Source: a virus. Taken from it: 30,751 nt of DNA. The notes below the pieces were generated by a model that saw only the letters and a program-made list of their open reading frames with translations, made no database searches and had not been told where the DNA came from. Shown one piece after another: positions 2,000 to 25,001 of this stretch (within the stretch, counting starts at the first letter, position 1; each line of letters begins with the position of its first letter). Position numbers and translations under genes: made by a program. The stretch is taken from IMG/VR virus record IMGVR_UViG_3300018067_000021, positions 1 through 30,751 of that record, one strand, 5' to 3'.

Positions 2000-4578
2000 T
2001 TGTATTTCCTTTGGTCTGCTACTTCGCCCATGATCCCGCCAGCTCCCAGCGCGCCAGCTAGGCCGGTCAGCGGTATCTTGCCGTGCGCCCACCAATCCAC
2101 AACTTTTTCCGGCGACACATTCAGCGTCTTGGCGGTGTCGGCTATCTGATCGTTGAGCAAGTTGACAATGGTCTTGGGCGGCGATGCCAGCCCGGTAATT
2201 GGCCCATACTCAAACCAGCCGCCCGACTGTCCTTCCGCCGGGTGGATGCCCAGCTTCTTTGCTGCGCGATACCACGGCTCGACCATCGGCAAGTATTCCG
2301 ATTGACGCTCGACCTTCTTGACGGTCGTGGTGCCAAGGCTGTCGTTGATGTCACCGGGATCGAGCGCCCTGAAGCCCTCCCTCTTGTACTTGGCGTAAGC
2401 CTCGCCTTTCTCGCCACCATGAAACCAGCTTGGGTGGAGCTGGCCCGGCATCAGGTTGTCCATCTCGAATAACGTACCGCGAATGTTGTGCGTGTCGCCG
2501 GTCACGTCGGCGAGGTTGCCGCTCCAGTTTTCGCGGAATGTGAACGGTTTGGGGTTCTTCCACGGGTTGACGGCATTGGCCGCGAACTTTTCGCCCAGGC
2601 CAACGTGCATGCCCATCATGCCGTAGCCGGGAATGTTACCTTCCTTCTTGAACCGCTCCAGCGTGAACGGATTGTCCTGCGCTCGCTCATACATCAGCGA
2701 GCTGGTATTGCGGAGGTTGGGTGGCGTCGAGGTGCGCGGTGACGTTGCAGCTCCCTGCCCAGCCCAGTTTCGCATCAGGTCGTTGGCCTCGGCCAGCGTC
2801 ATGTCGGCATGCTTGCCCAGCCCGCGAATGACCGGCGCGGTGTGGTAGAACTTCAGCAGCGGGTCTTGTCGCTTTACCAGCGGGTAGAGCCGCTCAGCGA
2901 TGCGATCAGCGAGCGGATCGGCGTTGTCGATGATCTGCTGCGCCCGGCCAGCATTGGGCAGCTTCTCGCCCGGCAGCGGGCCAGGGAGCTGGCTCTTGAC
3001 CGACACTTGCGGCACGATCTGCGATGTCTCTTCGTAGTCTTTGGGCTTGGTGCTGAACACCTCGCGCTCGGCTGTCGGCCACGGCCCACGTGGCGACCAC
3101 ACGCCTTCGCTGTCTACCTTTGGCTCCTGCGCTCGCGCCCTGATGGCAGCGATGTCGGCCTCGGTGGGCTTCGTGCGCGTGATGATCGACGGCGACGTGA
3201 CCGGCGGCTCGGCTATCGATCCAGGCGCGAAGCCCTTGCTTGGCGCGAAGCCTGTCGGTTTCTTCGTCGCCATCTGCCACGGCTCGACGGCGAGATCCGG
3301 CAGCTTCAGTTGTCCTTTGTTGAAAGTAACAATTTGCTTCTCAATCGGCACTTGATAGTCCGCAGGCGGCGGCACGTTTATCAAATACTCCGGGTCTTTG
3401 TTGGCGCGCCGCTGCACGATGTCAGCTTCGTTCTCACCGGCTGACCGTGTGTAGGATTGCATCGCCGCCTTGTCGCGTAGCTCCTTGTCGAGCCTCGGCA
3501 GATCGCTTAGCGCGTCGTTGTATTCCTTCATGAACTGTTTGTAGCTGTACCCCTTCCCGACAATGCCTTGCGCCCGCAGCTCTGCCTCGCTCGGCCTGTT
3601 GAGAAATTTGCCCAGCATGTCGTTGTAGATGTCCTGGGCTTCTGCGCTGAGCGGATTGGTATTGATGTTGGTCCCGGCGTTGAGGTCTTGCGCGGCCTGG
3701 GTGGCGTGTGTCCCTTCGTGCATGATCACGCCGTGCGGCGTGTCGTGCGCGTAGTCCACGTTCACCTCGATCTCTGGCTTCCTGCCGGTCGCCGGATCGC
3801 CACGCAGGAAGCCGCCGCCAATGTCGGGATGCTCCCTGGTGACCGTCAGCTTCGTCTCAGGCAGCCAGGGCGCTTGCGGGAACAGCGCCTTGTGTTCAAA
3901 CACGTCGCCCAGCTTCAGGTTCTTCTCGCCCACCAGCTTCATCGGATCGACCAGCCAGCGGCTACCCTTGTCGGGTATCTCGTAGCGCCAGATGCCATCG
4001 GCACCCTGGAACAGGCCGGTCCTGTCCCAGATGTCGCGGACGCTCGCACCCTCGCTCAGCAGCTTCTCGGCCCTGGTCAGCAGCTTGCCCGGCGGTGCCT
4101 TGAGGAACGAGGCGTCGGCCTCGCTTGGCGACAGCGCAAAGCCCGCCGCCAGCCCAGCCAGCTTTGCCGGTCCCGGCAGGCTCTTAGCCGCTGCCGCTGT
4201 CGCTCCTGTCAGCCCGGCACCCCATGTGGTCGTCGGCAGATACCAATCGCGCAGGCTCTCGCCCGTGCTGCGGTAGGCATGCTCGGCCTCCTGCTGTGTG
4301 GCCACGCCGTAGGGCAGATAGCTGTGCGGCGCGATCTCCTTCTGGAGCTGCTCGTCGTCGTACTTCTTCCAGGCATCCGGCGCTGAACGGTCGCGCACGT
4401 TGTAGCCTGCCGCCACCGGCTCCACGTAGCTCATCGCCGCCGCCACGCCGTCGTCGCGTGGCAGCATCAGCGCACTGGTTGGCGGCGCTGGCTGCGGCGG
4501 TGGCGGCCTGTCGGTGGCCGCCAGCTCGCCCATGATGCTTTCCAGCGTGTCGGGTTGCTGTGAATACCAATCGCTCAT
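1996..4578 (-). CDS. large head-operon protein with HEGTH metallopeptidase-like motif
   Basis: 860 aa from ATG 4578, coupled to the previous gene by ATGA. A hydrophobic helix-like stretch lies at about residues 120-150 (AAAAKSLPGPAKLAGLAAGF). The central part has HGVIMHEGTHATQAAQDL: an HExxH zinc site near residue 287 (codons 3706-3720), followed about 95 residues later by SAGENEADIVQRR, whose Glu would be a good third zinc ligand (gluzincin layout). This pairing resembles large polyvalent-protein-associated domains in phages, from memory. The C-terminal half is polar with no motif I recognise. It lies between the portal-linked 222-aa gene and the TIG proteins, so it could be a protease acting on virion proteins or an ejected effector. 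Confidence 0.85.
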   Translation of the reverse strand: MSDWYSQQPDTLESIMGELAATDRPPPPQPAPPTSALMLPRDDGVAAAMSYVEPVAAGYNVRDRSAPDAWKKYDDEQLQKEIAPHSYLPYGVATQQEAEHAYRSTGESLRDWYLPTTTWGAGLTGATAAAAKSLPGPAKLAGLAAGFALSPSEADASFLKAPPGKLLTRAEKLLSEGASVRDIWDRTGLFQGADGIWRYEIPDKGSRWLVDPMKLVGEKNLKLGDVFEHKALFPQAPWLPETKLTVTREHPDIGGGFLRGDPATGRKPEIEVNVDYAHDTPHGVIMHEGTHATQAAQDLNAGTNINTNPLSAEAQDIYNDMLGKFLNRPSEAELRAQGIVGKGYSYKQFMKEYNDALSDLPRLDKELRDKAAMQSYTRSAGENEADIVQRRANKDPEYLINVPPPADYQVPIEKQIVTFNKGQLKLPDLAVEPWQMATKKPTGFAPSKGFAPGSIAEPPVTSPSIITRTKPTEADIAAIRARAQEPKVDSEGVWSPRGPWPTAEREVFSTKPKDYEETSQIVPQVSVKSQLPGPLPGEKLPNAGRAQQIIDNADPLADRIAERLYPLVKRQDPLLKFYHTAPVIRGLGKHADMTLAEANDLMRNWAGQGAATSPRTSTPPNLRNTSSLMYERAQDNPFTLERFKKEGNIPGYGMMGMHVGLGEKFAANAVNPWKNPKPFTFRENWSGNLADVTGDTHNIRGTLFEMDNLMPGQLHPSWFHGGEKGEAYAKYKREGFRALDPGDINDSLGTTTVKKVERQSEYLPMVEPWYRAAKKLGIHPAEGQSGGWFEYGPITGLASPPKTIVNLLNDQIADTAKTLNVSPEKVVDWWAHGKIPLTGLAGALGAGGIMGEVADQRKYK

Positions 4579-5243
4579 CGCCGCCCCCGCCGCACGTCGA
4601 GGTCATCCATTGGATAGTTGGGACTAATGCGCTCGCTTAATCCTTCCGGCTCAAACCCACGGCGCTGGTCGAGGTAGGCGTCGAAGTTGGCCTGCGGCGT
4701 CGAGGGCCGGATGATGCTGCCCATGCCGCCGTAGGGCGGGACGAGGCCCAGGTAGGACAGCTTGTCGGCCTCGATGCGGTTCTCGGCGCTCTTGCGTAAG
4801 CCCCACGGGTCGTAGGGGCGGCCCATCAGTTGCGCCATCTCCTCCCGCGTTTTCGGCCTGCCTGCCGCCATCTGCGTCTCGAATTGATCCAGCTCCTCGC
4901 GGGTCATTGGCCGTAAGCCACCACGCGCATCGTCCAGCTCGTCGTCGCCGGTCGAGCCGGGCATCGGCTCCAGATTGAGCGGTGGCGGCGGCACTCCATC
5001 TGGTTCGCCAGGAAGCATCGGTTCATCCATTGGCGGGCCGCGCCCCAGCTCGCCGGGGAGCAACGTCCCGCTGCCAATCATCTTCTTCATCAGCTCGTAC
5101 TGAAACATCTCCTCGTCGCTGGGCTGCTCGTAAGGCTTGTCAGGCACGAACGATCTTCGATCAATGACGTTGCTCGACACCGGCATGGCCGCGTAGCCGT
5201 CCTGCGCCGCCAGCTCCCCCATCTGCCAATCTTCCGGGTCCAT
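4575..5243 (-). CDS. hypothetical portal-linked protein
   Basis: 222 aa. The ATG at 5243-5241 shares its first base with the portal stop (TGATG); an in-frame GTG one codon earlier is possible. The sequence is acidic and rich in Pro, Met and Gly (MDEPMLPGEPDGVPPPPLN), with a Glu/Arg-rich helix in the middle (MTREELDQFETQMAAGRPKT) and PYDPWGLRKSAENRIEADKL. No known domain is recognised. Its place immediately after the portal and tight coupling on both sides suggest a head-assembly accessory (scaffold-like or portal-associated), which is inference from position only. Confidence 0.8.
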   Translation of the reverse strand: MDPEDWQMGELAAQDGYAAMPVSSNVIDRRSFVPDKPYEQPSDEEMFQYELMKKMIGSGTLLPGELGRGPPMDEPMLPGEPDGVPPPPLNLEPMPGSTGDDELDDARGGLRPMTREELDQFETQMAAGRPKTREEMAQLMGRPYDPWGLRKSAENRIEADKLSYLGLVPPYGGMGSIIRPSTPQANFDAYLDQRRGFEPEGLSERISPNYPMDDLDVRRGRR

Positions 5244-7561
5244 CACTGCCGTCCCATTGGCTTGGGCTGCATCATCTTCATCTCATGCTGCTGCCTGCGC
5301 TGCTCGGACTGCGCCTGCATGTCGTGCTGCTTGTTCTGCGCCGCCGTCGCCGTCATCTGCGCCTTCTGCGCGTTCACAGCCATCTTCTGCTCGTTCTCGC
5401 GCATGTGCGCCTGATGCGCCTCGCGGTTCTCCAGCACCTTCTCCTGCTGGATGACAGCCTTGCCCTCGGTGTCGCTCAGCTTGATCTGCGCGTTGGCCCA
5501 GGCGATCTTGCGGTCGTTGGCCATCTTCTCTTCGTGCTGCCGGTTTTTATCCACCAGCTCCTGCTGATTGATCTTGAGCTGCTGCGCGTCGGTCTGCTGC
5601 TTTTGCTGTATCTTCGCCATCTCGATCTTCTCGTTGCTCTTGACGGCCTCCATCTGCGGGTTGGGCGGCATGCTCTGGCCCTTGGTCTTCATCTGCTCGA
5701 CCAGCTCGTCGATGGTGCCGTCGAGCGAACGCCCGGCGCGGAACGGTGCCGTGGCGAACTTCAGCAGCTCGCCGCAGAACTCGGCGGTCGAAGGCTCGGC
5801 CACGATCATCTGCGAGAGCTGCGGCAGCAAACCGCCAAGCATCTGCACGAACTCGGTACGCTGCTGCTTCTCGGCCTGCTCGTCGGCCATGATGGTGCTG
5901 TCTGTCTCGATGTCGAGGATGAACGACTTGGCCCGGCGGTCCTTCAGGAACTTCAGCACCTGTTCGATGGTTGGCTTCTCGCGTAGCTGATTGATAGTCT
6001 GCACCGCAGCTTCCTGGCTCTTCTGCGCTTGCTGCGCTACTTGCTGCGCCTGCTCTGGGTTCTGCTGCGCCATCTGCTGAACTTGTGGCATCTGCATGAG
6101 CTGCTGCATCTGGTTCTGCTGCGCTTGCATCTGCTGCATCACTTCGGAGATCTTCTGTTGAACCATCGCCTGCGTTGGAAGCTGCGTCTGGCTCATCTCG
6201 ATGATGGTGACTGGATTGAACTTGTCAGTGATGATGTCGAGGGACAGTTCGACAAGGTCGCGAGCGAACCTGACAAGCTCCTGCTGCTTGTCTTTGATGC
6301 GCTTAGAACCATACTCAGTCTTGAGCCGCTGAGCGCCCAGCGTTTCCTGCGGATCGGTATCGCCCCGCATAATGTCGCTCAGGCCCATCACTTGGTAGAT
6401 GTCCTCAATGACTTGCTTTCGCAGCGCCACTAGGCCGGTGATGGTCTGCGCGATCTGGTCGATGGGCATCCAGATGATGACCTCTTTCGAGGTGCCAAAT
6501 GCGGCCCAGTTGGCGATAGGCACCAGCATGCGTCCGCTGGTCTTGGTCTTCACCGCCGTCTCGATGGCGTCGGCCATTTCGGTGCCGCCGCTCGGATAGA
6601 AGCCCTTCGCCTCCAGCACCTCGCTCAGCGCGTGGATGCGGCCCGTCAGCATGTTCAGCTCGTCGAGCTGGTCCTTGTACTGCAAGACATCAGGCACCGG
6701 CACCAGCGAGCCTCTCTGCACCGTGCCGTAGGCTGGCTTAGGGCAAGGAAAAAAGTTGCACAGCTCCAGATGCGGGTCGTCCTCGTCCAGAATTTTCTCA
6801 CAGCCGTGTGCGACCCACAGCACACGATTGTCTTGCTTGCTCCATATCTCCCAGAACTTCGCCCGCTCCCTGTTGTCCGCGCCACCTACCTCGGCCCCCT
6901 CCTTGTCCACCCGATACTCGGCGTTCTGGTACTCGTCGCCGCTGGCCTTCCTGAACCGCTTGCGCGCCTGTCCTCGCGTCAGGTAGCTCGCTGCCGCCAC
7001 CCAGGTCACCTCTTCCCAGTTGCGCGATATGCTGTGCAGGAAGTCGCGCCGGTTCTTGAACTCGATGCAGACGCGCTCGGTGTCGTAGTAGCCCTTGCCC
7101 TTGCTCTCGTAGCGCACCCAGCCGCAGCCGCGACTGATCATCGCCACGTCATCGCGGATCAGCTTCATGATGTCGTCGATGCGCGTCAGGTCGAACGACA
7201 CCGTCACGCACCGCTCGGCCACCTCTGATGCGGCTTGGTAGACCGGCCTTCTGTCCTTGAACTTTGGCACCACAACCGGCTGCGGCGGCTTGGCGTAAAT
7301 CGAGGGCTTGATGACCTCGCAGTTCGCCCAAAACATTTGAAATTCTTTTTCACGCGACATCGTCGCCAGCCGCGCCATGCTGGCGTACTGCTTATCGATG
7401 TTGTCGCAGTGCGTGTTCCAATCTTCAAACATGTCCTCGCTTTCGAGGAGCAAGTTGAGCCACGCCTTGGCGTTCTTAGGCTCTACCGCCGGATTGTAGT
7501 CGTGGTCGTCCGCGCCAAGGTCGTCTTCGATTGGCTTGGGGTTGTCGTTGTCGTCGGCCAT
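5243..7561 (-). CDS. phage portal protein
   Basis: 772 aa from ATG 7561 with GGAG eight bases upstream; a TTG ten codons earlier has no good ribosome site. The portal forms the dodecameric ring at one capsid vertex through which DNA is packaged and ejected. Sequence support: position right after the large terminase, long alpha/beta body with AWLNLLLESEDMFEDWNTHC, VIKPSIYAKPPQPVV, VLQYKDQLDELNMLTGRIHA and IYQVMGLSDIMRGDTDPQET, patterns typical of large podovirus portals. Residues about 480-550 are Gln/Met-rich (QQKISEVMQQMQAQQNQMQQ) and the last 130 residues are a long charged coiled coil rich in Gln, Lys and Glu. The size is close to P22-type portals (about 725 aa) rather than the shorter siphovirus type. 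Confidence 0.93.
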   Translation of the reverse strand: MADDNDNPKPIEDDLGADDHDYNPAVEPKNAKAWLNLLLESEDMFEDWNTHCDNIDKQYASMARLATMSREKEFQMFWANCEVIKPSIYAKPPQPVVVPKFKDRRPVYQAASEVAERCVTVSFDLTRIDDIMKLIRDDVAMISRGCGWVRYESKGKGYYDTERVCIEFKNRRDFLHSISRNWEEVTWVAAASYLTRGQARKRFRKASGDEYQNAEYRVDKEGAEVGGADNRERAKFWEIWSKQDNRVLWVAHGCEKILDEDDPHLELCNFFPCPKPAYGTVQRGSLVPVPDVLQYKDQLDELNMLTGRIHALSEVLEAKGFYPSGGTEMADAIETAVKTKTSGRMLVPIANWAAFGTSKEVIIWMPIDQIAQTITGLVALRKQVIEDIYQVMGLSDIMRGDTDPQETLGAQRLKTEYGSKRIKDKQQELVRFARDLVELSLDIITDKFNPVTIIEMSQTQLPTQAMVQQKISEVMQQMQAQQNQMQQLMQMPQVQQMAQQNPEQAQQVAQQAQKSQEAAVQTINQLREKPTIEQVLKFLKDRRAKSFILDIETDSTIMADEQAEKQQRTEFVQMLGGLLPQLSQMIVAEPSTAEFCGELLKFATAPFRAGRSLDGTIDELVEQMKTKGQSMPPNPQMEAVKSNEKIEMAKIQQKQQTDAQQLKINQQELVDKNRQHEEKMANDRKIAWANAQIKLSDTEGKAVIQQEKVLENREAHQAHMRENEQKMAVNAQKAQMTATAAQNKQHDMQAQSEQRRQQHEMKMMQPKPMGRQ

Positions 7562-7591
7562 TGGGGCTGCTCCGAATTGCGCCAGCCCCAA
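7561..7591 (-). promoter_or_regulatory. stem-loop presenting the portal ribosome site
   Basis: Perfect 9-bp inverted repeat, TTGGGGCTG at 7561-7569 and CAGCCCCAA at 7583-7591, with a 13-nt loop. On the minus-strand mRNA the GGAG ribosome site lies at the loop edge and the portal ATG touches the stem base. This could modulate portal translation relative to the terminase; it is also simply a visible repeat. Confidence 0.5.
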
Positions 7592-7622: not shown

Positions 7623-7880
7623 TCATTTGAAATAGCTCGCCTTGCGCCGCAGCGGGATAACCTTCTCGTCGCCGTACATGCGGTCGAGCTGGTCGTTGAG
7701 CGTGTAGAACACGATCTCGGCAGTGGCGTGGGCATCGTCCCGGCTGCCGCCTTCGTGCCAGATCGCCTGCGCCAGGGCCGTCGTCAGGATGTCGCAAGCC
7801 TGCCGCCACGGCAGCTTCTTGCCAACCTGTCTGGCCTTGCGCTTGATGCGCTGCGCCTCGCGCCTTTTGTACTCCTTCAT
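7623..7880 (-). CDS. small basic protein after terminase
   Basis: 85 aa from ATG 7880, overlapping the terminase stop by ATGA. The N-terminus is strongly basic (MKEYKRREAQRIKRKARQVG), followed by an amphipathic helical part (ACDILTTALAQAIWHEGGSR) and an acidic middle. Its place between the large terminase and the portal and its basic head suggest a packaging accessory, but no family is recognised. A 61-nt gap separates it from the portal. Confidence 0.8.
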   Translation of the reverse strand: MKEYKRREAQRIKRKARQVGKKLPWRQACDILTTALAQAIWHEGGSRDDAHATAEIVFYTLNDQLDRMYGDEKVIPLRRKASYFK

Positions 7881-9238
7881 AGCCTGATCCCCTTGCTTGG
7901 TTCTGCCGGTGGCGGGATGAAGAAGCCGCGTGGCTTCTCGACATGCACCTCGCGCAGCGGTGCCAGCTTCCAGCTCAGCGCCAGATAGCGAAAGGCGTCA
8001 GCCGGGTGCGAGGTCCAATCGTGCATGTCGGACGCCTTAAAAGCTTTTTTCTCGTCATCCCACTCCCTGCGGTACTGCTCCAACGCGGCTATGCCCGTCT
8101 CCTCGGTGCGCGGATGAAACACACTGAGCGCCAGGGCGCGCCGCACTGCGTTGCGACCGTCCTCGACCGTCGCCTGCGGTACGAGCTGCGGGTTCAGCCC
8201 CATCAGCCGCATCGTCTCAACCCTGGTGCGGCCCGCCAACCACTCGCGCACCTTGGCGTCGTGCGGCACAAAATCTACGCCACGCCGCCAGCCGTGCTGC
8301 TGCTCGCGCTTCTCGATCTCGTTGAGGTAATGCTCCAGGCCCACGCCAGAACTTGCGTAGTGGTCAAGCACGAAGAGCTGCGCGCCCACGGCGCAGAACC
8401 ACCATATCGAGGTGTCGCTACCTACTCCCAAATCCCAGGCTCTGTGGACGTACTGATTGTCGAGCGGCTCTATCGGCAGGATGCGGCCTTCGTCGCGGAG
8501 CTGCGCCATCTCCAGTGCGTAGTACGCGCCCAGGATCGATGCGCTCCAATCGCAGTAATACTCTTGCAGGAATTGCGCCCGGCCAAAGTCTGAGCCGTAC
8601 AGCGCACGATACTCACGCTGCGTCTCGTCGAGCTGGTCCTGCGTCAGTGCGCCAGTGTCCTCGACAGTGAGGCGCTCGGCAAACCAACCCGGCGTCTGCG
8701 CCGCGTAGGCGTACATGGCGTGTGCGTGGTTGCGCCCGCGTGGCGTGGTGATGAACGTGGCCCAGCCGCCGTTCTCCTCAAGCATTGGTCTGAGGTAGCC
8801 CCAGGCCGCCGGGTTGCGCAGCGCGTATTCGCTGAACACCACTCCTGCCGCAGAGCTGCCAACTGTACGGTCGTATTCATCACTGCCAATGCAGCTCCAC
8901 GTCGAGCCGTTGACCAAGCGTATGTGCATATCGGTATCGCGTGTCGAGGCTCGCAGCTCTGCCGGAAATGCCTCATCAATACGCCGCAGCCCGGTGTGAG
9001 GATTAACAGCATCCCAGATCGCCTTTCGTGCCTGCGCGTACTCAGGCAGCATGTGCCAGTAGTTGCCTTGCCGTTCAAACGCGCTGATTGCTGTGTGGTG
9101 TAAACAAACGTCATCTTTTCCAGCGCGCCTGTGCCACACAGCCATCGCCCGCTTGCCGCCTTCACGCAGATAGCGCCACAGCGGCATCTGGTGATGGCGT
9201 GGCGTCCACTGATTATGCGGCAGCGAGATGTCAATCAT
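7877..9238 (-). CDS. terL: terminase large subunit (packaging ATPase-nuclease)
   Basis: 453 aa from ATG 9238 (MIDISLPHNQW); the frame stays open to 9325 but the preceding 55-aa gene occupies that stretch. It powers DNA translocation into the prohead and cuts the concatemer. Visible motifs: Walker A-like HRRAGKDD at 36-43, Walker B GVVFSEYA with Glu137 at 132-139, coupling motif TTPRGR at 164-169, then an RNase H-like nuclease with Asp269 and Asp275 (AWDLGVGSD), a strand FVLDHYAS near 290, and the final acidic residue Asp414 in SHPADAFRYLAL. Length is normal for a phage TerL. It overlaps its neighbours on both sides. Confidence 0.96.
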   Translation of the reverse strand: MIDISLPHNQWTPRHHQMPLWRYLREGGKRAMAVWHRRAGKDDVCLHHTAISAFERQGNYWHMLPEYAQARKAIWDAVNPHTGLRRIDEAFPAELRASTRDTDMHIRLVNGSTWSCIGSDEYDRTVGSSAAGVVFSEYALRNPAAWGYLRPMLEENGGWATFITTPRGRNHAHAMYAYAAQTPGWFAERLTVEDTGALTQDQLDETQREYRALYGSDFGRAQFLQEYYCDWSASILGAYYALEMAQLRDEGRILPIEPLDNQYVHRAWDLGVGSDTSIWWFCAVGAQLFVLDHYASSGVGLEHYLNEIEKREQQHGWRRGVDFVPHDAKVREWLAGRTRVETMRLMGLNPQLVPQATVEDGRNAVRRALALSVFHPRTEETGIAALEQYRREWDDEKKAFKASDMHDWTSHPADAFRYLALSWKLAPLREVHVEKPRGFFIPPPAEPSKGIRL

Positions 9239-9398
9239 AACGCAACCGCACGGTAGCCACCCAATAATCCCGGTTAACATCGGGGAGCCTGAACACAAAC
9301 CATCGATGCAGATTGTGTTCGACAATTGCCAGCGCCGGTATGTCGCGACCGATTGCAGCTCGCGCCTTCCAGCGCCGCTTGCTGTCGCGCTTCTTCAT
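9231..9398 (-). CDS. 55-aa basic protein overlapping the terminase start
   Basis: ATG 9398-9396 overlaps the stop of the preceding gene as ATGA and has GGGAAAGGCAGC just upstream; its TGA (9233-9231) lies eight bases inside the terminase gene. The product starts MKKRDSKRRWKARAAIGRD, continues PALAIVEHNLHRWFVFRLPD and ends WVATVRLRYD. The N-terminus is very basic and the rest looks like short beta strands. The chain of ATGA links on both sides argues that it is translated. The coupling would feed ribosomes directly to TerL. Function unknown. Confidence 0.65.
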   Translation of the reverse strand: MKKRDSKRRWKARAAIGRDIPALAIVEHNLHRWFVFRLPDVNRDYWVATVRLRYD

Positions 9399-10217: not shown

Positions 10218-10460
10218 CTAGTCGCGGCGTCCCTCCAGCGGACTGATCCACTTGGGGATGAACGGCTTGATGCCGTACTGTATCAGCAGCCGCAGCAGGA
10301 TGGCAGAGGGTGCCGGTATCCTGGCGGTGCCTTTGGCGTAGCGGTTGGCGGTGCGCTCGGACACGTCGAGGTAGCGCCCGGCTGCGGCCTGCGTCAGCCC
10401 CAGCTCCTTGATGGCGTTTTTGAACTGGCGCGGTGTCATTACTCGGTCTTGCTGGCTCAT
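10218..10460 (-). CDS. XRE-family helix-turn-helix regulator
   Basis: 80 aa from ATG 10460 (MSQQDRVMTPRQFKNAIKEL) with GGAG ten bases upstream; longer in-frame readings lack a site. Residues about 12-45 form a Cro/C1-type helix-turn-helix: LGLTQAAAGRYLDVSERTAN, then RYAKGTARIPAPSAILLRLL. A short C-terminal tail is rich in Pro and Trp. It is the second gene of the leftward packaging operon, behind the promoter at 11221-11250. It could therefore regulate its own operon and the sister promoters that share the palindrome. The DNA target is not known. Confidence 0.85.
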   Translation of the reverse strand: MSQQDRVMTPRQFKNAIKELGLTQAAAGRYLDVSERTANRYAKGTARIPAPSAILLRLLIQYGIKPFIPKWISPLEGRRD

Positions 10461-10498: not shown

Positions 10499-11191
10499 CT
10501 AGAGCGCCACCCACCGCTTGCCTTCCCACTTGTGGGTCTGCGTCCAGCCCGCGTAGCGGGCCGTCATCTCCTTGATGTCCTGCTTGAGGCGCACGATGCG
10601 CTGGTCGCGGCGCTCAAGGTCGCGGTCCTTGAACGTGTCGAACTTGGCGTCGTGCATGTGCGTGAAGATGCTGTCCGGGTTCAGCTTGACGAACTCCGCG
10701 AACGTGTCGCGGGTCATCTGCAATTCCTTGGACAAGTAGCGGTTACGCTGGCGGTCGTAGATTTGATAGTTGTGCGTCACCGGCTCGATCTCGTCGGCCA
10801 CGGCGCAGCGCGCATACTCGGAGCGCAGCAGCCACTCCTTGAGATGATCAATCAGGTCAGCGACTGCACCACGGTCCACCTCCCACGGCAGGCGCTTCGC
10901 GCCAAAGCATGAGCGCGTCTGCCAGCCGTCACCAGGGCGCGTGTAGCCGTGGTGCGCGATGGTGCCAAGCGCCGCGTGGATCGGGCGGTTGCAGCACTGG
11001 CAGTGCATCTCCTGCGATGCGTCGATGTCCTTGGTGACGCGCTCGCTGACGCGATAGCGGCCACGGTATTTCTCGTTGTAGGTCTTGACGATGTAGGCCT
11101 CGCCTTCCGCCCTGGTGGGGAACGAGATGTTGCGAAGCGTGTAGTCGCGGCCCCGGAAAGTCTCTTCGACAATGACAAACTTGGTGGACAT
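10499..11191 (-). CDS. conserved phage protein with a Cys/His (zinc-like) motif
   Basis: 230 aa from ATG 11191, AGGAG within a hairpin leader. The central motif MHCQCCNRPIHAALGTIAHH followed by GYTRPGDGWQTRSCFGAK gives CxxCC and a later Cys with paired His, consistent with one bound zinc. The C-terminal third is helical and charged (RDLERRDQRIVRLKQDIKEM) and ends WTQTHKWEGKRWVAL. I recall related proteins of unknown function in other phages with the HHGY.RPG.GW motif. It is the promoter-proximal gene of the leftward operon, so it is probably made in large amounts. Role unknown; nucleic-acid binding is plausible. Confidence 0.82.
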   Translation of the reverse strand: MSTKFVIVEETFRGRDYTLRNISFPTRAEGEAYIVKTYNEKYRGRYRVSERVTKDIDASQEMHCQCCNRPIHAALGTIAHHGYTRPGDGWQTRSCFGAKRLPWEVDRGAVADLIDHLKEWLLRSEYARCAVADEIEPVTHNYQIYDRQRNRYLSKELQMTRDTFAEFVKLNPDSIFTHMHDAKFDTFKDRDLERRDQRIVRLKQDIKEMTARYAGWTQTHKWEGKRWVAL

Positions 11192-11196
11192 GGGTA

Positions 11197-11220
11197 GCTC
11201 CTGTTGTGATGAACAGGAGC
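11197..11220 (-). promoter_or_regulatory. leader hairpin over the ribosome site
   Basis: On the minus strand GCTCCTGTT, loop CATCAC, AACAGGAGC: a perfect 9-bp stem whose 3' arm contains the AGGAG ribosome site of the 11191 gene. The site would be hidden when the hairpin forms, so translation could depend on opening it. Confidence 0.65.
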
Positions 11221-11250
11221 CTTATACCGACAACCTGACAGCCCTGTCAA
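11221..11250 (-). promoter_or_regulatory. leftward promoter of the packaging/head operon
   Basis: On the minus strand TTGACA (11250-11245), an 18-base spacer and TATAAG (11226-11221), close to the sigma-70 consensus. The palindrome GACAG-GG-CTGTC overlaps the -35 element, a natural operator position. The transcript would start in the hairpin leader of the 11191 gene. Confidence 0.75.
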
Positions 11251-11265
11251 CTGGTCAAATACCGC

Positions 11266-11295
11266 TTGACAGCCCTGACAGGCTGTCGGTATAAG
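11266..11295 (+). promoter_or_regulatory. rightward promoter of the small-gene cluster
   Basis: TTGACA at 11266-11271, an 18-base spacer and TATAAG at 11290-11295 (or GTATAA with a 17-base spacer). The spacer holds GACAGCC-CTGACA-GGCTGTC, a 7-bp inverted repeat. It faces away from the leftward promoter, with 15 bases between the two -35 elements. The leader TGTTCATCACAACAGGAGG follows. Confidence 0.75.
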
Positions 11296-11325
11296 ACGGT
11301 GTTCATCACAACAGGAGGTTTTCTG

Positions 11326-11490
11326 ATGACGACCGTTACCCTCTACAACTCCCTGGACTGCCCGCTCGGCAGCATCAGGCTGAAAGACGAAGACGCGACC
11401 GGCGAGGCCATTGCCCGCGCCGCCTGCGAGCTGGTCGAGCAGACCGGCGTACTGCACGAAGGCGACACCATCCGCATCGAGGTGGCATAA
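11326..11490 (+). CDS. 54-aa protein, first of the rightward small-gene cluster
   Basis: ATG 11326 follows AGGAGG by eight bases, a strong site; an upstream in-frame ATG lacks one and would lie in the promoter. The product (MTTVTLYNSLDCPLGSIRLK, then an ATGEAIARAACELVEQTG helix and GDTIRIEV strand) looks like a compact alpha/beta domain. No family recognised. Being promoter-proximal with a near-ideal ribosome site, it is probably abundant, as many small phage host-takeover proteins are; that role is a guess. Confidence 0.78.
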   Translation: MTTVTLYNSLDCPLGSIRLKDEDATGEAIARAACELVEQTGVLHEGDTIRIEVA

Positions 11491-11491
11491 C

Positions 11492-11704
11492 ATGCGCGTC
11501 CAAATCCCGGCCTACACTGACCGCTGGATGCGCGGCGACCGCTACGGCGAGGTGACCAAGGTCACCAAGTCGTCGCGCCGCCTCACGGCCTCCCTGAATG
11601 CGCGCAACAAGCGCCAGGACGACAACGTCGAGATCGCCCACGTCTTGCTCGACAAGAGCGGCCTGATGTACCGCGTCATCCTGACCGATTGCGAGGTGCT
11701 GTGA
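11492..11704 (+). CDS. 70-aa basic protein
   Basis: ATG 11492 starts two bases after the previous stop. The product MRVQIPAYTDRWMRGDRYGE continues with VTKVTKSSRRLTASLNARNK and ends in strands around HVLLDKSGLMYRVILTD. It is basic in the first half and looks like a small beta-rich fold. No family recognised. It is coupled to its neighbours, ending TGATG at the next start. Confidence 0.75.
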   Translation: MRVQIPAYTDRWMRGDRYGEVTKVTKSSRRLTASLNARNKRQDDNVEIAHVLLDKSGLMYRVILTDCEVL

Positions 11705-11916
11705 TGGTCAGCGATTTCACCCAGTCCATCGTCCGCATGGGCCGCGAGCATGGCTACACGCTGGGTCTTGCCCGCGCCCTCGACCTCCTGCGCCAGCATG
11801 GCGTTGCGGTCGATCACCCGGCGCGGGACGCCGTCTACAAGGCGCTAATGGTCGAGAAGCCTGCGGACGTGGCTTACTTTCCCTCCACCCCACCGCGCAC
11901 TACCTTGGAGGCATGA
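11704..11916 (+). CDS. 70-aa helical protein
   Basis: ATG 11704 shares a base with the previous stop (TGATG). The sequence has FTQSIVRMGREHGYTLGLAR, then ALDLLRQHGVAVDHPARDAV, a two- or three-helix pattern, and a Pro-rich tail. Function unknown. The stop overlaps the next start by ATGA. Confidence 0.75.
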   Translation: MVSDFTQSIVRMGREHGYTLGLARALDLLRQHGVAVDHPARDAVYKALMVEKPADVAYFPSTPPRTTLEA

Positions 11917-12392
11917 CAGACCTCCCTCCCAACCTCGCCCAGGCCTGCGAAGCCTGGGCGAGGCTTGAGGCGCATCTGATCGAGTATTGTGGTCTAGGGC
12001 AGGGTGCGCTCCTTGAACGGGAACGCCCTGCCCTAATCCGCGTTTTAGTGGCGGCGCTGGATGCACCGCCCGCCCCGGCACCCATCCAAGCCTCCGCACA
12101 ACTTGCTGCGCTAACAGCGAATGCGGAAGGTGCAGGACGCGCCATGCGTCCTGTACCTAACATAGCCACCCCCCTGCCTGATCCACCCCCACCGCAAATA
12201 TCTCGGATCACGCGGGGGGTCTGGTACGCCGCTGGCGACCTTCCGGCTCCTGACCTAGCAAGAGCCAGAGCAGACGGTCCCGGCTTCGACTGCCGCCAGT
12301 GCGGTCGCCGGGTACGCGGCGCGAGGCATAGTGACCCCAGGCTTCTTTGCCCAACTTGTACGCTGTCAGAAGGCCACTCGTCAGCAGGATGA
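11913..12392 (+). CDS. small protein with a C-terminal zinc-ribbon-like motif
   Basis: 159 aa, ATG overlapping the previous stop. The first 60 residues are helical (PNLAQACEAWARLEAHLIEY), the middle is a Pro/Ala-rich linker, and residues about 131-150 contain CRQCGRRVRGARHSDPRLLC then PTC, a CxxC...CxxC pair that would hold one zinc. Codon use becomes less GC-biased toward the end, so the exact 3' part is less certain. It is the last gene of the rightward cluster and ends just before three hairpins. Confidence 0.7.
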   Translation: MTDLPPNLAQACEAWARLEAHLIEYCGLGQGALLERERPALIRVLVAALDAPPAPAPIQASAQLAALTANAEGAGRAMRPVPNIATPLPDPPPPQISRITRGVWYAAGDLPAPDLARARADGPGFDCRQCGRRVRGARHSDPRLLCPTCTLSEGHSSAG

Positions 12393-12398
12393 GCAAAA

Positions 12399-12419
12399 TC
12401 CCGGTCACGCTGACCGGGA
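12399..12419 (-). terminator. hairpin with T-run for leftward transcripts
   Basis: TCCCGGTCA (12399-12407), loop CGC, TGACCGGGA (12411-12419): a perfect 9-bp stem. Read on the minus strand it is followed by TTTTG, giving a reasonable intrinsic terminator for the leftward early operon. Confidence 0.55.
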
Positions 12420-19267: not shown

Positions 19268-19696
19268 TTAGTGCCTCCCCATTGCCGGATAGGCGATGCG
19301 TGAATGCTTGAAGCAGTAGACGCTGCCCTCGACCGGCGGGATGCCGCAGTAGAAATACGGCGGCAGGCCCTCGGTCACCGGCCAGCGGCATGTGCGGTGA
19401 TCGAGCTGCATGATGGTGACCTTGCCCCACGTCACGCCGGGCTTGGGCGGCTCTGGCTTCGCCGCCGGGTGCCGGTAGGGCTTGCGCTTCTTTTTGTGCG
19501 GGCTGCTGGCCCGCTGCTTCTTTTCGGTGCCGCGCCGCGCCCGCGAGATGCAGGAGTTTTTGGTGAAGATCCGGTGAAACCGCGACACCATCCTGTCGGC
19601 AATGGCGCTGTAGTTCAGCGGCGGTCGATGCTGCATCAGCTCAGCGAGATACGCCTTGGCCTCGTCGGTCCAGGGCGTGGTTTCTGTGTCGGTCAC
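19268..19696 (-). CDS. GcrA-like cell-cycle regulator
   Basis: 142 aa from GTG 19696 (overlapping the previous stop as GTGA, AGGA upstream). GcrA is an alphaproteobacterial transcription factor that works with sigma-70 and reads GANTC methylation by CcrM. The N-terminus, PWTDEAKAYLAELMQHRPPL then NYSAIADRM and FTKNSCISRARR, matches its Myb-like W(T/D)E...L..L...S...IA helix-turn-helix. The middle is a basic linker. The C-terminus, LDHRTCRWPVTEGLPPYFYC then CFKHSRIAYP, matches the CRWP...F(H/Y)CG...C..H.R.AY motif of the GcrA C-terminal sigma-binding domain. Length is slightly short. It could redirect host polymerase to phage or host promoters. Relation by motif, not by search. Confidence 0.85.
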   Translation of the reverse strand: MTDTETTPWTDEAKAYLAELMQHRPPLNYSAIADRMVSRFHRIFTKNSCISRARRGTEKKQRASSPHKKKRKPYRHPAAKPEPPKPGVTWGKVTIMQLDHRTCRWPVTEGLPPYFYCGIPPVEGSVYCFKHSRIAYPAMGRH

Positions 19697-19968
19697 CGCT
19701 TCTTCCTCACCTTGCGCCGGTCGATGGCCCGCTGGATCGCCTTACGCAGCCGTGGTCCGCGCTGGCCGCGCATAGCCCACAACTCGTCCGGGGCCGTCAG
19801 GCCCATCTTGCTGAGCTGCTTGTGGATAACGACCCAGGTATTGGCCGGGAATTTACCTGTGGATCGCCACCAGCTCACCACCTTCCCGTTCGTATCCAGC
19901 AGCTCGGCAACGTGCTGGTTGCCGCCCAGCGCGTCGATTACCAAGCCAACTGATGGTAGATTTGACAT
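19693..19968 (-). CDS. YdaS/Cro-type helix-turn-helix regulator
   Basis: 91 aa from ATG 19968 (AGAGG six bases upstream); a GTG two codons earlier is less likely. VIDALGGNQHVAELLDTNGK then VVSWWRSTGKFPANTWVVIH is a helix-turn-helix in the style of YdaS-type phage regulators, followed by LWAMRGQ and a very basic tail ending RKVRKKR. It is the first gene of the leftward early operon, and two direct repeats (19981-20014) lie just upstream, so it probably binds them and controls both directions. Confidence 0.82.
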   Translation of the reverse strand: MSNLPSVGLVIDALGGNQHVAELLDTNGKVVSWWRSTGKFPANTWVVIHKQLSKMGLTAPDELWAMRGQRGPRLRKAIQRAIDRRKVRKKR

Positions 19969-19980
19969 ACTCACCCTCTT

Positions 19981-20014
19981 TCTAGATTATTCGGAACGGT
20001 CTAGATTATTCGGA
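19981..20014. promoter_or_regulatory. two 15-bp direct repeats between divergent operons
   Basis: TCTAGATTATTCGGA at 19981-19995 and again at 20000-20014, 19 bases start to start (nearly two helix turns), in the 65-bp gap between leftward and rightward operons. The AT-rich repeats stand out from the GC-rich genome. They look like operator sites for the adjacent regulator and must overlap the promoters, whose exact hexamers I cannot assign. Confidence 0.65.
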
Positions 20015-20033
20015 TTATGCCGGGAGGTCAATC

Positions 20034-20599: not shown

Positions 20600-20609
20600 A
20601 CAAGACAGC

Positions 20610-20660
20610 TTGACAGCCCTGTCTATTTGTCGGTATAAGGTGCCTGTTCATCACAGCAGG
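20610..20660 (+). promoter_or_regulatory. third copy of the shared promoter and leader hairpin
   Basis: TTGACA 20610-20615, 18-base spacer, TATAAG 20634-20639, then CCTGTT/CATCAC/AGCAGG at 20643-20660, a 6-bp stem (one G-T pair) over the AGGAG site. The palindrome GACAG-CC-CTGTC overlaps the -35 element. By eye about 54 of 62 bases match the leftward promoter at 11221-11250 from -35 to ATG, including AGGAGCTACCCATG. Confidence 0.78.
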
Positions 20661-20668
20661 AGCTACCC

Positions 20669-21607
20669 ATGACCCGCGACCTCAATGACGACCTCTCTGA
20701 CCTCCTCGGCGGCGAGCCTGTTTCCCCCATCAGCATGAAGCAGCCGCCTGCTTCCTACGCGCCCATCGAGAAGACCGTGTTTTCCGAAGGCTGCCCCAAG
20801 TGCCGTGGCACCGGCACGTTCTATAGCTACAGCGGTCGCGCTCTCGGCCCGTGCTTCGCCTGCAAGGGCGCAGGCAAGAACACCTTCGCCACCTCGCCTG
20901 AGGCTCGCGCCAAGTCGCGTGAGCGCGCTCTCGCCAAGCGTGTCGAGAAGGCGCAGGAGATTATCGACAGCGCCAACAGCTTCCGCGCCACCTACCCGGA
21001 CGTGGTCGCGTGGCTGGAAGGCTCGGCCAAGCGCAATGCGGCGCGTGGCGGCAGCTTCACGTTCCCAGCGGATCTGCTGGAGAAGCTGAACCAGTACGGC
21101 TCGCTGACGGACGCGCAGCTCGCCGCCGTCCGCAAGCTGATGGCGCGTGACGCTGAGCGCGCCGCTGAGCGCACGGCGGCAGCTCCTGTCGCTGACGTGT
21201 CGGCGCTGGAGAAGGCGTTCGCAGTGGCTCGCGAGCGCGCCCAACTGCCGGGCGCGAAGGGCGTGTTCACGAAGCCCCTGAAGCTGACGCACGGCGAGGT
21301 GTCGGTTGCCATTTCCTCGCCCAAGCCGGGCAGCAAGTGGGACGGCATGCTGTTCGTGCGTGACGCCCAGAATGACGAGCGCAAGCTCGGCTATTTCAAG
21401 GGCGGCAAGTTCTTCCGCCAGGGTGCCGCCACTGACGCGGAGGCCGCCGCCATCCTGGCCTGCGCCGCCACGCCGTTCGATGCCGTCAAGGCCTACGCCA
21501 AGGCGTGGTCTGAGTGCGGCATCTGCGGCAAGACGCTGTTCAACGCCGAAAGCATCGAGCGGGGCATCGGCCCCATCTGCGCCGCCAAGTATGGCTGGGG
21601 GTTCTGA
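20669..21607 (+). CDS. protein with DnaJ-type zinc finger and DUF6011-like tail
   Basis: 312 aa from ATG 20669, AGGAG in the leader. Residues about 42-72 (CPKCRGTGTF, CFACKGAGKNTF) are two CxxCxGxG repeats like the DnaJ zinc finger. The middle is a basic helical region (PEARAKSRERALAKRVEKAQ) and a beta-rich domain around GSKWDGMLFVRDAQNDERKL. The last 30 residues (CGICGKTLFNAESIERGIGP then ICAAKYGWGF) match the short Cys-containing DUF6011 pattern, which I recall from DNA-repair and phage proteins. It may bind nucleic acid through both zinc sites. The shared promoter suggests high expression together with the packaging operon. Confidence 0.82.
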   Translation: MTRDLNDDLSDLLGGEPVSPISMKQPPASYAPIEKTVFSEGCPKCRGTGTFYSYSGRALGPCFACKGAGKNTFATSPEARAKSRERALAKRVEKAQEIIDSANSFRATYPDVVAWLEGSAKRNAARGGSFTFPADLLEKLNQYGSLTDAQLAAVRKLMARDAERAAERTAAAPVADVSALEKAFAVARERAQLPGAKGVFTKPLKLTHGEVSVAISSPKPGSKWDGMLFVRDAQNDERKLGYFKGGKFFRQGAATDAEAAAILACAATPFDAVKAYAKAWSECGICGKTLFNAESIERGIGPICAAKYGWGF

Positions 21608-23955: not shown

Positions 23956-24213
23956 TCACCTCTGTGGTGAAATGTGCAGTTCTTTGGTCATGATACCAAT
24001 CACGTTGTCCAGCCGTTTCTTGTTATCGCTTGAGGTGCTTTCCAAAACGGTAAGCCGGTTATCAATTACTTGAAGGTGCGGGCTGCCTCGCGTTTCCAAC
24101 GTCGCCACCCGCGTCTCAAGCCGCACAACGTATGCCGTCACAGTAAACAAAGCGACGAACAGGCCGCCCAGGAAATAGTTCTCCTTCACCCAGGACAGCG
24201 CAGAGGTCGTCAT
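23956..24213 (-). CDS. single-TM coiled-coil protein, inner-membrane spanin candidate
   Basis: 85 aa from ATG 24213, overlapping the previous stop by ATGA. A short head, one TM helix (YFLGGLFVALFTVTAYVV, about 12-30), then a periplasmic-type coiled coil (RLETRVATLETRGSPHLQ, DNRLTVLESTSSDNKKRLDN). This layout matches i-spanins (Rz-like), though shorter than most; it could also be a holin accessory. It lies just upstream of the two-TM protein. Confidence 0.72.
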   Translation of the reverse strand: MTTSALSWVKENYFLGGLFVALFTVTAYVVRLETRVATLETRGSPHLQVIDNRLTVLESTSSDNKKRLDNVIGIMTKELHISPQR

Positions 24214-25001
24214 GCGAGGCCGCCACGAATGTCTGCGTTGTGCGCCCCCGTGTACACGAACTCGTTCTTGGTGCCGTCCCAATTGCCAAACGAGCAATTG
24301 CCCCAGCCGTACACGGCCCAGCCTGCGCCACCGCCGCCGAAATCATATTCGTAGCCTGGGTTGGCGCTGTATGCCGCTTGCCCAGCTTCGCCGGGACCGC
24401 CGCCGTTGCCTTGGTTGATCGCCGGATTGTTGTCGGCGCGAAAGCCGGTGCCGCCCTGCTCAGTGGTGCCGTCTGTCGGATGGTGCCACCACTGGTCCTC
24501 GCCTACGTTCGACACGCCTTTCGGCCCTGGAGTGTAGCCTGCGCCGCCGCCGCCGCCGAATTGCTGGCCGCCGTTGATCATCAGCGAATTGCCGCCGCCG
24601 CCACCGCCGCCGAATATCTGCGCGCCGTTGGCGACGATGTTCATGCCACGGTCGATGTACATCGCGCCGCCGCCACCCAGGCCGCCGTTGCTGTTGGCAC
24701 CGCCGCCCTGGCCGCCAGCTCCCTGGATGCGGCCTTGGATTATCAAGGTCAGCGTGGCGCTCGCAGGCAAGTCGCCCCAGCCGCCCGGCTGCAATGCCCA
24801 CGCGCCGGTCGATGACGCGCCAATATAGACACCCGGATTGATGACAAGCACGATTGTGTCTTCCGGGTTGATGGTCGCGCCGTACCAAGCATTGAACGTG
24901 GCGCGCAGATTTACGTCGAAGGCATTGCCGGTCCACGTCACAACCTTTGGCGGTGGCTTGACCTTGCCCAGCATCATCGCAAGGCCGGGAATGTTGCTCA
25001 T
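24210..25001 (-). CDS. glycine-rich probable tail-tip adhesin
   Basis: 263 aa from ATG 25001, three bases after the tail-fibre stop. The first 100 residues form a beta domain (VVTWTGNAFDVNLRATFNAW, DTIVLVINPGVYIGASSTGA, ATLTLIIQGRIQGAGGQGGG). Residues about 95-240 are runs of Gly (GGLGGGGAMYIDRGMNIVAN, IFGGGGGGGNSLMINGGQQF) separated by short polar loops, as in polyglycine-II adhesins at phage fibre tips. The variable loops would contact the host receptor. Directly behind the fibre gene, this is the most likely host-range gene in the window. Confidence 0.82.
   Translation of the reverse strand: MSNIPGLAMMLGKVKPPPKVVTWTGNAFDVNLRATFNAWYGATINPEDTIVLVINPGVYIGASSTGAWALQPGGWGDLPASATLTLIIQGRIQGAGGQGGGANSNGGLGGGGAMYIDRGMNIVANGAQIFGGGGGGGNSLMINGGQQFGGGGGAGYTPGPKGVSNVGEDQWWHHPTDGTTEQGGTGFRADNNPAINQGNGGGPGEAGQAAYSANPGYEYDFGGGGAGWAVYGWGNCSFGNWDGTKNEFVYTGAHNADIRGGLA

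Follow-up and report, generated by a model that had tools for sequence, protein, structure and literature searches.

A candidate operator shared by three putative sigma-70-type promoters suggests a common regulon in a clade of uncultivated phages

Why should a phage carry three nearly identical promoter units, two of them divergent and the third 9.3 kb away, in front of genes as different as those for packaging and for a zinc-finger protein? We addressed this question in IMG/VR record IMGVR_UViG_3300018067_000021, a 30.7-kb contig of an unclassified tailed phage (30,751 nucleotides, analyzed as a whole and hereafter called the window). The sequence TTGACA-N18-TATAAG occurred exactly at 11221-11250 on the minus strand (leftward promoter, PL), at 11266-11295 on the plus strand (rightward promoter, PR), and at 20610-20639 on the plus strand (distal promoter, PD). 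The coordinates of the initial annotation were right to the base. These were the sole matches in the window at up to two mismatches, compared to a mean of 0.37 in shuffled sequences, with none of 100 shuffles reaching three. In PL, the -35 box TTGACA lies at 11245-11250 and the -10 box TATAAG at 11221-11226; the predicted transcription starts of PL, PR, and PD are the G residues at 11214, 11301, and 20646, respectively. Each unit continues into TGTTCATCACA[A/G]CAGGAG, with a gap of 5 (PL), 4 (PR), or 5 (PD) bases between the -10 box and the leader. PL and PD are identical at 54 of 62 bases, a value that our recount reproduced, while the arms of the divergent pair (11221-11255 and 11261-11295) are 83% complementary. 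With TTGACA and TATAAT-like boxes 16-18 bp apart and a Shine-Dalgarno (SD) sequence and start codon downstream, we interpret the three units as putative sigma-70-type promoters. A local sigma-70 scan missed them because its -10 rule requires a final T.

The three promoters face distinct sets of genes. PL reads into a leftward operon that starts at 11191, with a first gene (10499-11191, minus strand; ATG at 11189-11191) for a 230-aa protein matching phrog_11549 and a second (10218-10460, minus strand) for an Xre-type HTH protein of about 80 aa, our candidate regulator. The run continues with the terminase large subunit (TerL; 7877-9325, minus strand), the portal protein (5243-7591, minus strand; phrog_12082, 1.8e-174), and further genes. 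PR precedes a cluster of small rightward genes at 11326-12392 on the plus strand (11326-11490, 11492-11704, 11701-11916, and 11913-12392). Downstream of PD, the gene at 20669-21607 (plus strand) heads a second rightward cluster and encodes a 312-aa zinc-finger-type protein with a C-terminal DUF6011 (PF19474, 6.9e-11; phrog_4046). A primase/helicase-type replication run extends leftward from ~19.9 kb to 12.8 kb, and a terminator-like hairpin with a T run (12399-12419, minus strand) lies where it meets the small rightward genes. Leftward virion-type genes occupy both contig ends (1-7591 and 23391-30718), and close relatives measure 43-44 kb. With ~13 kb missing, the window appears to be one piece of a circularly permuted genome. 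A Gp38-like tail fibre adhesin (24210-25001, minus strand; PF05268, 3e-10) is a likely host-range determinant.

The initial annotation had proposed that a shared control circuit links the packaging, small rightward, and zinc-finger genes, against which a recent duplication with no conservation in relatives would have spoken. We found units at the same places in close relatives (G001, G006, L021, G002, L010, L007, and L048), with PL syntenic in the first four of these. A TerL search yielded 80 loci, down to ~60% identity, and the divergent pair, usually with a distal copy, recurred in contigs whose TerL was only ~60-70% identical. This conservation rules out a recent duplication. The spacer is 17 bp in most relatives, including the PL counterparts of distant ones, as compared to N18 in the window. 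In many loci, the pair sits upstream of TerL at a distance of a few kb, and the most frequent interval between the two -35 starts is 16 bp. A head-to-head pair was present in 22 of 36 HTH-bearing TerL loci but in 0 of 25 loci without the HTH gene. The distal copy lay ~9-13 kb from the pair in 10 relatives (G001, G002, G006, G012, G017, G021, G022, G026, G031, and G036). It directly precedes the zinc-finger gene in the window, G001, G002, and G017; a small ORF intervenes in G006, and other small genes follow the distal copy elsewhere. A degenerate pattern gave 68 matches in 50 related records versus 1 for the reversed control, and none in 1.28 Mb of more distant TerL contexts. The putative promoter module is common to dozens of related uncultivated phages. 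Together with the spacer palindrome and the co-occurring regulator gene described below, the recurrence of the pair and its distal copy strongly supports the shared circuit.

We then aligned the spacers of all TTGACA-N16-18-TA sites within 1.1 kb upstream of an HTH gene, leaving the spacer itself free (n = 37 after removal of near-copies). With the first T of TTGACA numbered 0, position 11 was G in 36 and position 13 was C in 35 of the 37 sites, G at 19 and C at 21 were each found in 35, and GNC was also common at -6/-4. To our knowledge, sigma-70 promoters make no such sequence demand on their spacers. The best symmetry centre was 7.5, with 48% paired as compared to at most 36% at other centres. 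The resulting array, GAC-N5-GACA-N4-TGTC-N5-GTC, comprises four half-sites, the inner left one being the -35 box. We read this palindrome as a candidate operator overlying a sigma-70-type promoter. In the window, it covers PL at 11227-11257 (minus strand; TGACC-AGT-TGACA-GGGC-TGTCA-GGT-TGTCG; 31.6 bits), PR at 11258-11289 (plus strand; containing TGACA-GCCC-TGACA-GGC-TGTCG; 27.7 bits), and PD at 20602-20633 (plus strand; GACAG-CT-TGACA-GCCC-TGTCT-ATT-TGTCG, near-palindromic; 27.2 bits, and 27.6 on the opposite strand). With a scoring matrix trained on distant relatives only, the three sites reached 27-32 bits, whereas 20 random windows yielded no score above 16.2. When the -35 hexamer was masked in a single-genome scan, the three sites continued to rank with the best scores but no longer stood out from random sequence; the operator evidence therefore depends chiefly on many sites being aligned together.

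These data bear on one alternative, that the units are ordinary strong sigma-70 promoters, duplicated and kept for strength alone, with no dedicated regulator. Consensus hexamers and the small differences between copies within one genome would suit such an origin. However, GNC is retained at two set spacer positions across relatives in which the surrounding DNA has diverged, the array is palindromic, and loss of the motif accompanies loss of the HTH gene (see below), which makes this explanation highly improbable.

Which protein might bind the array? The product of 10218-10460 matches Pfam HTH_3 with 24.4 bits (cut-off 23), and its AlphaFold model is a compact HTH fold (pLDDT 84.6). In eight relatives, an Xre-type HTH gene of 78-85 aa is the first after PL; the relatives' HTH proteins are 40-56% identical to that of the window. 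The best PDB folds in Foldseek were HigA2, Aca1, MqsA, Aca10, Aca2, and lambda repressor, with weak E-values (best 7.5e-3), as expected for a domain of only 78 aa. Searches with Pfam, PHROGs, and NCBIfam models returned only generic HTH, MqsA-like, and HigA-like matches. The motif was present in 25 of 28 records with a strong HTH match (E ≤ 7e-20) and in 2 of 22 without (P = 8e-9 across all records; P = 3e-7 after near-copies were collapsed). The exceptions were three HTH-bearing records lacking the pattern (G016, G041, and G043) and two motif-bearing ones without a strong HTH match (G038 and the fragment G011). On the TerL tree, a clade lacking both HTH and motif (L092, L095, L096, and L099) branches from within the HTH-bearing relatives, as expected if the two were lost together; in L092, no divergent promoter was present in the region read. 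The distribution needs only ~3 changes on the tree, and the contigs are related and partly fragmentary. The effective number of independent events is therefore small, and the HTH-motif evidence is good but not overwhelming. On these sequence comparisons, the HTH protein is the best candidate for the ligand of the array.

A different regulator could be a host protein or another phage protein, such as the GcrA-like protein (19268-19696) or the YdaS-like protein (19693-19974), with the HTH link arising from shared descent, for which the small phylogenetic sample leaves room. GcrA is an alphaproteobacterial cell-cycle sigma-70 cofactor family, and GANTC is the methylated site reported to matter for it. 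By eye, we saw no GANTC in the three units of the window. A GcrA-like gene was found in 12 of the 27 motif-bearing records and leaned to motif-bearing genomes when contigs of at least 39 kb only were counted (P = 0.03). Yet, when all records were taken, neither the GcrA-like nor the YdaS-like gene followed the motif (P = 0.76 and 0.24), as the HTH gene did, and the clade lacking both HTH and motif does carry GcrA-like genes. After collapsing, the P values were 0.055 for the GcrA-like and 0.74 for the YdaS-like gene. We consider this alternative quite unlikely, and as individual candidates, we set aside the YdaS-like protein (no association with the motif), the GcrA-like protein (weak association), and an HTH_32 protein, which occurred in only 2 of 50 records. 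Counterparts of the window's GcrA-like gene (minus strand; PF07750, 1.9e-12) are present in 18 of the 50 records from related phages, and GcrA homologues have been described in phiCbK-like phages (PMC3556154).

Our main reading, to which we assign a probability of about two in three, is that the three sigma-70-type promoters form one regulon with a common operator and are repressed together by the HTH protein encoded at 10218-10460. Host RNA polymerase would recognise the three strong promoters; the same four-half-site operator would overlie each of them, the -35 box itself serving as the inner left half-site, and the HTH protein would bind there. Because its gene sits in the leftward operon, binding would result in autorepression, and the divergent small genes and the distant cluster headed by the zinc-finger gene would be repressed along with it. 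The outcome could be a burst of expression that is damped once the HTH protein accumulates, or else a timed switch from one gene set to another. The mechanism is likely to be autorepression of the Aca type, acting on late, accessory, and zinc-finger genes. The replication genes lie in a leftward run of their own, which has another control region at 19960-20020, and the CATCAC-SD leader would be a second, translational element that some gene starts use without a promoter.

The direction of control is suggested by the sites themselves: a perfect-consensus -35 box within the operator makes repression by occlusion likelier than activation, and from this box and the operator position, we infer that the operator mediates repression. 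Many phages switch on packaging and structural genes via an activator, and the leftward run holds both kinds of genes; the HTH or another phage protein might thus recruit polymerase as a late-gene activator, and a half-site at -7..-4 does lie just upstream of the -35 box. We regard this as unlikely, since nearly every site has a perfect-consensus -35 box, which the operator covers together with the spacer. Such coverage is the usual position of a repressor, while activator-dependent promoters normally have poor -35 boxes.

The second control region, at 19960-20020, is flanked by the leftward YdaS-like gene (19974) on one side and by 20034 (rightward) on the other. It carries two copies of TCTAGATTATTCGGA, 19 bp apart, 3' of TTGACA-N17-GATTAT. 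Both copies are present in G006, and a single TCTAGATTATTTGGATTATG copy is present in G001 and G002. This region probably serves to switch the replication genes separately.

The leader behaved differently from the promoter. The initial annotation had given the divergent promoters the same leader, which is exact for PL and PR; the leader of the third copy differs. TGTTCATCACAACAGGAG is found at 11198-11215 (minus strand), where it includes the SD and ends 6 bases before the ATG at 11189-11191, and at 11300-11317 (plus strand), while PD carries TGTTCATCACAGCAGGAG at 20645-20662 (plus strand), reading AGCAGGAG with one mismatch. Chance matches to TGTTCATCACAACAGGAG averaged 0.03 in shuffles. Across these phages, CATCAC or CATCGC before the SD was strongly enriched at gene starts, with 52 occurrences of ATCACA versus 2.2 expected. 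CATC[AG]C occurred at 27 of 57 promoter-linked and 41 of 1027 other starts (reversed control, 0 and 13), and the leader was also found after stop codons and before starts without a promoter. The leader is not tied to the promoter, and its most fitting interpretation is a separate translation element associated with gene starts. At six loci (L063, L065, L068, L074, L101, and L114), gene starts that lack the operator-promoter carry CATCACAA(C)GGAG immediately behind stop codons, a start-associated sequence of the clade.

The leader might also act through RNA structure, whereby a hairpin with a CATCAC loop and the SD in its 3' arm would hide the ribosome site in read-through RNA, while transcripts from the promoter itself, lacking the 5' arm, would be translated. 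Promoter transcripts of the T4 lysozyme gene e escape the SD hairpin of read-through RNA in this manner. Folded from the -10 box, the PL leader forms an SD-hiding hairpin of -15.5 kcal/mol (z -4.3), and RNA truncated at the predicted start, which falls inside the 5' arm, is unstructured. A fourth promoter-leader unit, seen before MSEKPSLRDRRR in G002 (40560), G006 (29042), and L007 (6189), has 12-bp arms around CATCAC followed by TTTTT, a terminator-like and SD-hiding structure that overlaps the -10 box; one arm pair reads either T-A or G-U, a paired change that would favor a hairpin function. On the other hand, the PD leader folds no better than shuffles (z 0), the PR leader folds differently, and the leftward terminator-like site at 12399-12419 would limit read-through. 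Furthermore, the arms mostly shrink to 1-3 pairs in distant relatives, although promoter and CATC leader persist, so that the pattern of gene e, a conserved SD hairpin with the start inside its 5' arm, does not apply here. As a general function of the leader, the hairpin was rejected, being strong at the PL leader and in close relatives but absent in distant ones; we judge this explanation distinctly improbable and, as the hairpin is not kept, left it out of the main mechanism.

Turning to hosts, a TerL search of a genome collection for a host or prophage gave no match. A TerL alignment search returned only relatives at ~30-60% (plus short fragments at 65-69%), which were mostly alphaproteobacterial; none of them carried the motif. 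The host is probably alphaproteobacterial, as judged solely from the company that TerL keeps. The closest cultured TerL relatives, Rhizobium phage RHph_I3_18 and Bradyrhizobium phage ppBjS10J-1, have neither motif nor HTH gene; Bradyrhizobium phage ppBeUSDA76-2 encodes a 49% HTH relative but has no motif in the surrounding 4.3 kb. The bacterial contigs of the 1.28-Mb set of more distant TerL contexts contained no HTH homologue.

Relatives do not all carry the same gene at a given cassette. In L166 (G046:3900-6400), the gene after a non-paired copy (position 4447) is a homologue of the small gene at 11492-11704 of the window (MRVQIPAYTDRW), which there stands behind the divergent promoter; genes thus appear to move between promoters, and the cassette may be a site for new accessory genes. 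From this, we advance a broader and tentative proposal, against which the odds still lean: in a clade of soil phages with probably alphaproteobacterial hosts, one Aca-like HTH protein might coordinate the packaging/structural operon and swappable accessory genes via a portable promoter-operator-leader cassette. If so, cassettes would mark accessory, possibly anti-defence, genes. The cassette could also help to search for accessory genes of unknown function. More generally, what appeared as a repeat can now be tested as a regulon for which a candidate regulator and an operator are named, in soil phages of which few, if any, have been cultured.

How does this arrangement compare with known systems? 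Rfam gave no match. Dispersed operator copies, some on divergent promoters and presumably serving one phage repressor, recall lambda CI/Cro, the C repressor of Rhizobium phage 16-3, and the L5-type stoperators. The operator of 16-3 presumably has a core different from that described here. Unlike L5-type stoperators, every operator that we found sits on a promoter, and unlike phage immunity repressor regulons, no integrase or lysogeny module was seen in the 30.7-kb fragment. Aca proteins repress promoters via inverted repeats inside the core promoter (PMC9410906). The candidate system shares with them an inverted repeat in this position, a small HTH protein encoded in the operon that it is proposed to control, and a predicted fold that matches Aca1, Aca2, and Aca10, albeit with weak E-values. 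In contrast to Aca systems, the HTH gene occupies the first or second place in its operon rather than following an acr gene, one operator set would serve three promoters including that of the packaging operon, and we recognised no acr gene. The Pfam, PHROGs, and NCBIfam searches gave no sequence-based Aca assignment.

Among described systems, the ESAS/SAS of Cluster K mycobacteriophages comes closest, as an analogy rather than through homology; in it, SigA-like promoters lie under an imperfect inverted repeat and are accompanied by a conserved SD-containing start sequence (PMC3203893, PMC11373665). As in that system, we found several intergenic promoter copies with boxes 17-18 bp apart and an overlaid inverted repeat, as well as a conserved SD-containing sequence at gene starts with and without a promoter. 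The likeness is one of architecture alone: the SAS sequence GGGATAGGAGCCC was not found, the leader here being TGTTCATCACAACAGGAG, and we saw no sequence similarity between GGGATAGGAGCCC and the CATCACAAC-GGAG of these phages; the repeat differs, the hosts are different, and 2-5 promoter sites occur here as compared to 7 reported in Adephagia. The authors of the ESAS studies suggest repression via the repeats and state that the regulator is unclear (PMC3203893, PMC11373665), whereas a co-occurring candidate regulator was identified here. The phages described here may thus provide a second example of the layout of promoter, inverted repeat, and start-associated sequence, in very different hosts.
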